Of a DNA stretch of 64,000 nt, positions 24,690 to 42,091 are shown one piece after another. Origin of the DNA: Prevotella sp. (GTDB lineage: Bacteria; Bacteroidota; Bacteroidia; Bacteroidales; Bacteroidaceae); contig JAEETD010000002.1 in assembly GCA_016290175.1 (NCBI GenBank), positions 24,254 through 88,253 on the forward strand, given 5' to 3'. The notes beneath the pieces were generated by a model that saw only the letters and a list, made by a program, of their open reading frames with translations, was not told the DNA's origin and ran no database searches. How positions within the stretch are numbered: the stretch's first letter is position 1; the number at the start of each line of letters is the position of its first letter. Position numbers and translations under genes: made by a program.

Positions 24690-24800
24690 CCCCCTAAGTT
24701 AGGGGGGTAGGGGTCTGAACAAGCGCAGACTCCCTTCCAGTATAAACATAAATAGTCTGATAAACGCTTGTTCAGACCCCCATCCCCCTAACTTAGGGGG
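24690..24800. repeat. Compact inverted-repeat element: 36-bp arms (34/36 match), 39-bp spacer with inner cagact/agtctg stem
   Basis: 24690-24725 ccccctaagttaggggggtaggggtctgaacaagcg; 24765-24800 cgcttgttcagacccccatccccctaacttaggggg. Confidence 0.93.
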
Positions 24801-38325: not shown

Positions 38326-40485
38326 TTAACTTCTTTTCTTATGAATCCATTGTGAGATGGTGGTATAGAGCGATGTCTCCTCATGGTGCTGGGCCTCGGT
38401 GAAGCTCATGCGGTCATCCTTCTGGTCGCCGTACTGATCTGGGAAGATGATCATGAGATTCTTGCCAGAGAAGTATTTCTGCAATTCGTCAGGCAGTCGC
38501 TCCAAGGCATTTTTGTAAGAGATGGTGCCTTTACGGGCGGTAATGACGACAAACATGTGGTCTTCCTGAATGGTAGCCGCCAGTTGTGGCAGTTCGTTCC
38601 AATGGGCCATGGGCGTATATTCTGCACGGACATTGGGATGGCGGTTGTTGATGTATTCGGCAATCAGCATGAGTGACTCCTCACGGCCATGGAATTGGAT
38701 ACGACAGTCGAGTTGTCCTGCTAAACGACTCAGACGCTCCAGCCAACGGTGGAAACCGGGTTCGAACTCAGCCCGTGAGGGTACAGCCACCTGGATGCGT
38801 CGCAGGGTGTTGAGGGGCTGCACGAAGCGGATGAGGATGATCTGGCGGTTCAAACCATTGTAGAGGCTCTGGATAAAATCACCCCAGAACTTCGGATTAC
38901 GTTCCGTATGGACGTGCATACCCATGATAATCTCGGAACTGCTGAACTCGCGGAAGGCGTGTTTGATGCCGTTGGCGATGTTAGAGGCCAGGCGTACTTG
39001 CGTCTGCATCTGTAATTCAGCAGCGGAAGCCTGTTTCTGCAACTGCTCTAACAGACGGAGTCCTGTTTCACGGTGGGCCACAGACTTTTCGTCATCATAG
39101 ACCACATTCAAGGCCACGAGACCTCTGTTCAATCGTTGGTTACGCATGAGTAATGCGATGGACAGCAGTTGGGGCGCTATTTCCTTGTATTTGACGCATA
39201 GCAGGATCTTCTCGTCATCGTCAGGAGAGTTGCTGTTCGTCGTTGCACCGGGATAGGAGATGGCATCGCGGTTCTGGGTGAGCACAATCTGCTGGGAGGC
39301 ATGGTCGGTCATTATGGTGGAGATAATACAGGTGACGAGAATCATCATGACGACACCATTCAACATGTCGCTGTTGACGAGGTAGACGCCAGGGGATACC
39401 TCCAGACGCATGCCCACCATCACCATCGCGATGGCACCGGCCGCATGGGCTGACGTCATGCCGAACATCATATTTCCGTCGCGCTGTGGCAGTCGGAAGA
39501 TCAGACTGGAGATATAGGCGGCCACAGCTTTGCCGAAGGTGCCGAAGAAGGCGATGAGACACACCACCAACAAGACCTCAAAGGACGTGAAGACGGTGCG
39601 CACATTGATCAGCATGCCTACACCAATGAGGAAATAGGGGATGAAGACCGCATTACCGATGAATTCGATACGGTTCATCAGTGGTGACACCTTCGGGATG
39701 TATCTGTTCAGGATCAGTCCTGAGAAGAAGGCACCGAAGATTCCCTCCAGACCAATGGCTACCGAGAGTGCTGCCGAGAGGAACATGACAGCCAGTACGA
39801 AGATATACTGCATGACCGCATCGGAATAGCGGCGTAGGAAATAGCGGGCCAGACGGGGGATGAGCCAGATAGAGCCGGCGATGAATACCGCGAGGGATAA
39901 GAGGAAAGAGAAAAGGGATAAGAGGAGAGAGGTATGGCCGGAGTCGGTTTTGCTGGCGGTGAAGAGGGTAGAGAGGGCCGCAATCATCACCAGGGCCAGG
40001 AAGAGGGATATCATCGAGGAACCGACGGAGAGCTGGACGGAAGGATGTCGCTGCAGGCCGTATCGGCTGACGATGGGGTAGGCGATGAGGGTGTTGGAAG
40101 CCATGATACAGCCTAAGAGGAAGGAGGCGGGATGACTGTAGCCCAGGAGGGTCTGTGACATGACGTAGGTGAGGACCAGAGGTACGAAACACGTGAGCAG
40201 ACCGAAGATCAGAAACTGGCGGGAGTTGCGCTTGACACTCTCCAGATCCATCTCCAGACCTGCCAGGAACATGATATAGTAAAGACCGACGCTTCCGAAG
40301 ATTTCGAAGGAGACATCGCGCTCCAGGATATCCAGACCGTATTTGCCGATGACGACACCTGCCAGTACCATACCGATGATGTGCGGGATGCGCAGCTTGC
40401 TCATGATGATTGGTGCAAAGAGAATGATCATCAGCACGACGAAAAAAATCATCGTGGGGTCAGAGATAGGGAAATAGTTGGGCAT
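38326..40485 (-). CDS. CPA2-type cation:proton antiporter with C-terminal universal-stress-like region
   Basis: RIPHIIGMVLAGVVIGKYGLDIL, GAFFSGLILNRYIPKVSPLMNRIEFIGNAVFIPYFLIGVGM. Confidence 0.88.
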   Translation of the reverse strand: MPNYFPISDPTMIFFVVLMIILFAPIIMSKLRIPHIIGMVLAGVVIGKYGLDILERDVSFEIFGSVGLYYIMFLAGLEMDLESVKRNSRQFLIFGLLTCFVPLVLTYVMSQTLLGYSHPASFLLGCIMASNTLIAYPIVSRYGLQRHPSVQLSVGSSMISLFLALVMIAALSTLFTASKTDSGHTSLLLSLFSFLLSLAVFIAGSIWLIPRLARYFLRRYSDAVMQYIFVLAVMFLSAALSVAIGLEGIFGAFFSGLILNRYIPKVSPLMNRIEFIGNAVFIPYFLIGVGMLINVRTVFTSFEVLLVVCLIAFFGTFGKAVAAYISSLIFRLPQRDGNMMFGMTSAHAAGAIAMVMVGMRLEVSPGVYLVNSDMLNGVVMMILVTCIISTIMTDHASQQIVLTQNRDAISYPGATTNSNSPDDDEKILLCVKYKEIAPQLLSIALLMRNQRLNRGLVALNVVYDDEKSVAHRETGLRLLEQLQKQASAAELQMQTQVRLASNIANGIKHAFREFSSSEIIMGMHVHTERNPKFWGDFIQSLYNGLNRQIILIRFVQPLNTLRRIQVAVPSRAEFEPGFHRWLERLSRLAGQLDCRIQFHGREESLMLIAEYINNRHPNVRAEYTPMAHWNELPQLAATIQEDHMFVVITARKGTISYKNALERLPDELQKYFSGKNLMIIFPDQYGDQKDDRMSFTEAQHHEETSLYTTISQWIHKKRS

Positions 40486-40488
40486 AAG

Positions 40489-40520
40489 CCCCCTAAGTTA
40501 GGGGGTTGGGGGTCTGAACG
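40489..40520. repeat. Left arm of the G/C-run inverted repeat
   Basis: ccccctaagttagggggttgggggtctgaacg. Confidence 0.92.
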
Positions 40521-40861
40521 CCCTCCTGACCCTGGTTAATACTCAGAATAAAATCTTTAATTCTTTCCAATACGTATTCAATATTTTGTTCTACCTCTTC
40601 ATTCCTAAACCTCAATACTTGAATCCTATTCTGTTTCAGAAACACGGTTCTTTCTTCATCTTTCTGCTTGACTTTCTCATCATTATGCACTCCTCCATCC
40701 AATTCAATACATAATCTTATTGAAGGACAATAGAAATCTAAAACATAAGGTCCGAAACCATGTTGTTGACGAAACCTATAAAACCTATATCCATCAAGTT
40801 GTTTCCCTCTTAATCTTTTCCACAACATTCGTTCTGTGGAAGTTTCGGTCATTCTTAACAA
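40493..40861 (-). CDS. DUF559 / Vsr-like endonuclease domain protein
   Basis: TERMLWKRLRGKQLDGYRFYRFRQQHGFGPYVLDFYCPSIRLCIELDGGVHNDEKVKQKDEERTVFLKQNRIQVLRFRNEEV; stop codon lies in the repeat arm; start uncertain (TTG 40861 or internal ATG). Confidence 0.9.
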   Translation of the reverse strand: MLRMTETSTERMLWKRLRGKQLDGYRFYRFRQQHGFGPYVLDFYCPSIRLCIELDGGVHNDEKVKQKDEERTVFLKQNRIQVLRFRNEEVEQNIEYVLERIKDFILSINQGQEGVQTPNPLT

Positions 40862-41037
40862 CCGACGGTATTCTTTTGTTGCTGGATGATTCGAATAAGT
40901 TCATATAATCAAGGTTTTAGTTGCAAAATTACAACTTTTTTGCGAAATATGAAATAAAGACAAAGTTTTTTTGTAATTTTGCAGTCCAAATAGTGAAATA
41001 TAATTTATTGTTAAACTAGGGTTGGTGGGAAAGGCTA

Positions 41038-41072
41038 GCTTGTTCAGACCCCCAACCCCCTAATTTAGGGGG
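41038..41072. repeat. Right arm of the G/C-run inverted repeat
   Basis: gcttgttcagacccccaaccccctaatttaggggg. Confidence 0.92.
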
Positions 41073-41077
41073 CTTAT

Positions 41078-42091
41078 ATGAAAGTAGCAATTGTTGGAGC
41101 GAGTGGCGCTGTAGGACAGGAGTTCCTGCGCATTCTCGCAGAGAGAAATTTCCCGATGGATGAACTGGTGTTGTTTGGTTCTGAGCGCAGTGCAGGCCGA
41201 AAGTACACATTTAAGGGTAAGGACATCGAGGTGAAGCTGTTGCAGCACAACGATGACTTTAAGGATGTGGACATCGCCTTCACCTCTGCAGGTGCAGGTA
41301 CATCGAAGGAATTCGCCGAGACAATTACGAAATACGGAGCTGTGATGATCGATAACTCTTCGGCTTTCCGTATGGACGATGATGTACCCTTGGTGGTGCC
41401 TGAGTGCAATGCTGAGGATGCACTGAACCGTCCCCGTGGTATTATCGCCAATCCTAACTGTACTACGATTATGATGGTCGTTGTGCTCCAGCCGTTGGAG
41501 AAGATCTCTCATATCAAGCGCATCCATGTGGCTTCTTATCAGAGTGCATCTGGTGCCGGTGCCGCAGCGATGGCTGAGTTGCAGCAGCAATATAAGGAGA
41601 TGGTTGAAGAGGGTGAGGTGAAGACCGTGAAGAAGTTCGCCCACCAGCTGGCTTACAATGTGATTCCTCAGATTGACGTGTTCCAGCCCAATGGCTATAC
41701 CAAGGAGGAGATGAAGATGTACAACGAGACCCGTAAGATCATGCATACTGATGCGAAGTGCTCGGCCATGTGTGTCCGTGTTTCATCGTTGCGCTCTCAT
41801 TCTGAGTCTGTCTGGATTGAGACCGAGCGTCCCATCAGCGTAGAAGAGGCTCAGAAGGCTATTGCCGCTGCACCTGGTTGTACGTTGAAGGATGATCCCA
41901 CGACGCTGACCTATCCGATGCCGTTGGAAACAGCAGGCAAGGACGATGTCTATGTGGGTCGTATCCGTAAGGATATCAGCGATGAGAACGGTCTGACCTT
42001 CTGGCTCAGTGGTGACCAGATCCGTAAGGGCGCAGCGCTGAATGCTGTGCAGATTGCAGAGTACCTGGTGAAAGTAGGGAATGTCAAATAG
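41078..42091 (+). CDS. asd: Aspartate-semialdehyde dehydrogenase
   Basis: [57 protein letters not shown]. Confidence 0.96.

Follow-up and report, generated by a model that had tools for sequence, protein, structure and literature searches.

The closest described systems to the locus presented here are the REP/REPIN-RAYT systems, including REPtrons and TIRtrons (PMC3733652), in which short palindromes lie in inverted pairs, many copies hold no gene and a few enzyme genes are flanked by the same repeats as the gene-less copies. Rickettsia palindromic elements (RPE) are likewise short palindromes, found in frame in unrelated genes (reviewed in PMC10969869). On the side of the enzyme, E. coli YcjD was tied to Vsr by profile and is a PD-(D/E)XK nuclease (PMC1189080). 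In the open-access papers found, no mobile role is described for YcjD or for Caulobacter VsrA, and a search of the open-access full-text literature for DUF559 with palindromic or inverted repeats gave nothing relevant.

In this paper we looked at a 64,000-nucleotide stretch of Prevotella DNA (the window), in which a sequence-only reading had pointed to a DUF559 ORF between inverted arms of a palindromic repeat and to a tight, gene-less inverted pair of the same arm; both were borne out (Table 1). The 22-base arm core, with up to 3 mismatches, has 4 matches in the window versus none in 100 dinucleotide-preserving shuffles, and no other C-run/G-run palindromes of the arm type are found in the window. 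The stop codon of DUF559 falls within the left palindrome, and the left arm thus encodes the last residues of the protein, VQTPNPLT. At its other end the gene has one extra T right after the ATG (40897-40904, minus strand), reading ATGAACTTATTC versus ATGAACTATTC in three relatives with the same insertion (L045, L046 and L048). This +1 frameshift puts the original ATG out of frame and leaves only TTG or an internal ATG as starts; the window copy may be decaying, or the extra T may be an assembly error. No Rfam family, intron families included, comes near its gathering score at the locus.

Table 1. Coordinates of the arms, the nuclease gene, its neighbours and the compact element in the window
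Feature	Position	Strand	Remarks
Left arm	40489-40519	+	CCCCCTAAGTTAGGGGGTTGGGGGTCTGAAC; begins just outside the kefB start codon
Left-arm palindrome	40489-40505		CCCCCTAAGTTAGGGGG, plus inner tail TTGGGGGTCTGAAC
DUF559 (PD-(D/E)XK, Vsr/I-Bth0305I-like) nuclease ORF	40493-40861	-	Pfam PF04480, E 5.9e-29
Former 5' end of DUF559 gene	40862-40904	-	ATG 40904-40902; compared with L045, L046, L048, L049, L052
Region from DUF559 to right arm	40905-41037		Probable promoters of DUF559 and asd; similar stretch in L045, L046, L048 at same site
Right arm, inverted	41038-41072	-	Directly 5' of asd ATG
Right-arm palindrome	41056-41072		CCCCCTAATTTAGGGGG, plus inner tail
kefB-like antiporter gene, left neighbour	38326-40485	-	Name inferred from sequence
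asd (aspartate-semialdehyde dehydrogenase), right neighbour	41078-42091	+	
Compact gene-less element	24690-24800		Same arms 71 bp apart (start to start); long single hairpin

The compact element of the window folds as DNA with -42.6 kcal/mol (z -11.8). In the whole source genome (3.0 Mb in 166 contigs) the 22-base core has 13 matches, compared with 0 for the reversed-pattern control, and there is a single DUF559 match. Nine sites, including the one in the window, hold no gene; all of them are inverted pairs, some with one diverged arm, and their polarity is identical to that of the gene-bearing form. Of the RAYT-type Y1 transposase genes of the same genome, two (L069 and L071) are flanked by unrelated inverted repeats of their own (ATGTCACATCG... 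and CTGACAGGGGACAGG...).

The protein itself matches only DUF559 and restriction-endonuclease families in Pfam. Its AlphaFold model (mean pLDDT 78.5) resembles a solved DUF559 protein (3hrl, E 3.5e-8) and the homing endonuclease I-Bth0305I (3r3p, E 6.9e-4), which is also found by a profile-sequence search (E 1.1e-4); the comparison with the fold of Vsr (1cw0) gives E 0.48 and TM 0.45. Residues D53, E64, D66 and H70 are invariant. Based on profile, fold and active-site residues the protein is a DUF559/PD-(D/E)XK nuclease. The conserved acidic residues, together with a dN/dS of 0.07-0.14 in the three pairs with an estimable dS, suggest that it is functional.

One question is how general this arrangement is. 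Bracketing was scored by local alignment between the left flank (350 bp) and the reverse-complemented right flank, with a cut-off of at least 18. Among the Bacteroidales, inverted G/C-run palindromes bracket 63 of 91 DUF559 loci (46/71 when those picked for their similarity to the query are left out), compared with none of the 162 controls (0/25 asd loci and 0/137 shifted positions). The Pseudomonadota give 16/24 DUF559 loci versus 1/48 controls, and the bracketing thus lies far above the controls in two phyla, while about a third of the DUF559 loci have no detectable arms. The arms vary by locus but follow a common plan, a C-run hairpin with an adjoining second tail of G- or C-runs. Arms of the window's family, family A, surround DUF559 genes at many unrelated loci, with the hairpin on the outer and the G-run tail on the inner side; the order is reversed in many other families, and any single model of cleavage must therefore account for both. 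In S. meliloti Ak57 pSymB (L265, 1828-2540) the DUF559 gene lies between two long inverted compact elements, with an alignment score of 104. The rhizobial arms around DUF559 are presumably RIME elements. Near a DUF559 gene of another genome (G099; L084 and L094) arm-like repeats stand on the same strand with a spacing of ~265 bp, as an array and not as an inverted pair, and the DUF559 gene of L190 (G028:C36), broken into two frames beside family-A arms, is probably a decayed copy.

The arms also diverge together with the nuclease. Between genomes, the more alike two DUF559 proteins are, the more alike are their arms (Mantel rho 0.59, 0/500 permutations), and 89% of the DUF559 pairs with more than 65% protein identity have arms in common. 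Different DUF559s within one genome carry different arms; in genomes with several of them, an arm has a similarity of 0.71 to the arm of the closest protein from a different genome, versus 0.44 to the other arms of its own genome (p=1e-5). The DUF559 copies in one genome are mostly diverged, which indicates that the gene itself rarely duplicates, and DUF559 genes are few, while compact pairs reach tens of copies in some genomes. Across 60 genomes of the genus, in which family A and a generic B pattern were counted, the mean number of repeats is 22 with DUF559 and 2.5 without it, and at least 10 repeats are found in 17/36 genomes with the gene versus 2/24 without. Repeat count and DUF559 presence are thus correlated (Spearman 0.56, p=3e-6, with the kinship between the 60 genomes ignored). 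Repeats occur with no detected DUF559 in G031 (18 repeats) and G022 (16), and the cognate gene is undetected beside 20 family-A arms in G055, a 62% complete MAG.

Occupied and empty sites can be compared between species, often in MAGs, and such pairs were found at the paaK-ACT and kefB-asd intervals and in the genes for TopB, NspC, an M16 peptidase, LeuRS and a helicase. The distance from the paaK stop to the ATG of the ACT gene is 12-37 bp in six relatives (counted from the printed sequence), compared with the compact element that occupies this place in the window, and relatives such as G013, G020 and G025 have a kefB-asd region free of the element. Other insertions are intragenic, with protein names for interrupted or fused genes taken from sequence and not from a family search. 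Compact elements of the source genome lie in frame inside ORFs that include topoisomerase III (topB), nspC and the M16 peptidase; at the element site, the compared orthologues of these three genes carry a variable linker that is either shorter or different. Whole arm-DUF559-arm units are found in frame inside leuS in G061 and G078, and at another place of the gene in G042, as well as 3' of the Walker A motif of a helicase in G036 and G030; the aligned LeuRS and helicase orthologues of other genomes are uninterrupted. Further units of this kind lie in frame in the genes of an ABC-F protein and an epimerase, among others, and some stand as fusions in front of Gmk, IspF, ArgB and RNase H-like genes. 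No target-site duplication was seen in 27 elements, in which direct matches are close to expectation. An apparently single intragenic compact insertion is present in the same gene of two species (L083 in G038 and L005 in G000), which suggests vertical inheritance. A strain-level empty site in Sinorhizobium pSymB was dropped because a neighbouring IS confounds it.

Both the association of arms and nuclease and the insertion polymorphism are well supported, and the repeat-associated nuclease element that the sequence-only reading had proposed is supported by them. Three results had been named beforehand as speaking against it, namely arms equally common in genomes without DUF559, orthologues usually without arms, and no polymorphic empty sites, and none of them occurred. 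We therefore consider it probable that these loci belong to a mobile element whose sole gene is the DUF559 nuclease and whose ends are inverted G/C-run palindromes, with compact pairs of arms, about 70-130 bp long, as its non-autonomous derivatives, the compact copies being presumably derived from gene-bearing ones. The simplest reading is that the nuclease is the mover of the arms, acting on them and driving their movement. Single-stranded arms would extrude as hairpins, the nuclease would recognise the arms of its own family and nick in them or close by, and the hairpin-forming unit would be copied into AT-rich sites by host repair or replication, with no target-site duplication. The arms of many families leave a reading frame open that codes for Pro/Gly-rich linkers, which lets copies persist within genes, essential genes included.

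The main rival explanation is that the repeats are moved by host replication or repair, or by an unlinked RAYT-type enzyme, and that DUF559 is a homing-type parasite of these independently mobile repeats, which cuts the gene-less pairs and is copied into them through arm-to-arm recombination. The kinship to I-Bth0305I fits with this, as do the small number of DUF559 genes beside many repeats and the arms and polarity common to gene-bearing and gene-less forms. Yet such a process requires a separate mobiliser for each arm family, and it has to face the fact that arm sequence tracks DUF559 sequence. A RAYT in this role was rejected based on the source genome, where the RAYT genes lack DUF559-type arms. 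We regard the homing-type explanation as unlikely.

A less probable option is that DUF559 is a repair or defence nuclease which is merely carried or regulated by passive intergenic palindromes, for example bidirectional terminators. Arms often adjoin gene ends, there are weak PADLOC similarities, and the DUF559-domain protein VsrA of Caulobacter has a damage phenotype that is linked to a DNA methyltransferase (PMC12907096). Against this option, neither the asd nor the shifted-position controls are bracketed, units are found in frame within leuS, the helicase and other genes, and each nuclease family has arms of its own; we find it improbable. It could also be argued that the arms of the window locus are independent insertions that flank the gene by chance. 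The caveat raised from the sequence, that a probable asd promoter lies between the arms, stands, since in the window, as in three relatives that share the insertion, this promoter is found between the DUF559 gene and the right arm, and one clean insertion does not explain the promoter region of the window locus. Against chance stands the same two-arm layout, which recurs at this site in L045, L046 and L048 and is found in 14/15 close relatives of the window gene, mostly at other sites. Independent arms thus seem a very remote explanation for the window locus, and as an account of the whole family they are very unlikely.

With a mobile element moved by its own nuclease as the preferred reading, the findings point to an undescribed kind of mobile element. 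If this is true, a role is found for a common family whose function was unknown, palindromic repeats for which no enzyme is known acquire a candidate one, and there is a REP-like system built on an unrelated nuclease. In-frame insertions would then supply new protein segments in nature, and would account for the odd 'fusions' of DUF559 to leucyl-tRNA synthetase, guanylate kinase or IspF. A wider proposal, which we make tentatively and hold as somewhat less than an even prospect, is that DUF559 proteins are dedicated mobilisers of an unrecognised, phylum-spanning class of palindromic elements, whose ends have evolved to be translatable and allow gene-less copies as well as the nuclease gene to enter host proteins in frame, essential proteins included; several orphan palindromic repeat families, such as those of rhizobial DUF559 genes and E. 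coli ycjD, would then be derivatives of it.

At the E. coli K-12 ycjD locus (L267, 1978-2534) the DUF559 gene is followed downstream by C-run palindromes and the upstream G-run arm is absent; this locus may be a fossil. The repeat downstream of ycjD is, we assume, box C. Places similar to it, searched with 57 bp from the homologous KE47 stretch, occur in 5,372/5,426 E. coli genomes with a median of 16 each, and ycjD was not found in about 2,000 of the 5,426. Its absence was rejected as a strain-level empty site, because another operon stands in its place at the three loci read (PMC12817139).

Compared with the known systems, the DUF559 elements are related to YcjD and VsrA by Pfam family (VsrA: PMC12907096) and to I-Bth0305I by the profile and fold of the catalytic domain; an endonuclease of the latter type has one fixed homologous target, whereas the DUF559 elements occupy many unrelated sites with palindromic arms as their ends. 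They resemble the MITEs of insertion sequences in that compact, non-autonomous copies have the ends of the enzyme-bearing form, and differ from MITEs and DDE insertion sequences in that a transposase gene is missing between the ends and the target sites are not duplicated (27 elements). With RPE they share insertion in frame, but the available excerpt of PMC10969869 names no enzyme for RPE, while here a nuclease with the same ends is itself inserted in frame. Membership in the mobile-element families considered is not claimed, since for each a tested feature failed or the comparison was incomplete. The inverted pairs, the many gene-less copies and the small number of enzyme genes that lie between the same repeats are all as in REP/REPIN-RAYT systems; what separates the two are the copies in frame inside genes and the enzyme, an HUH Y1 tyrosine transposase (PF01797) there and a DUF559 protein here. 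The best reading is therefore of an element class that is REPIN-RAYT-like in its working, but with a PD-(D/E)XK nuclease.
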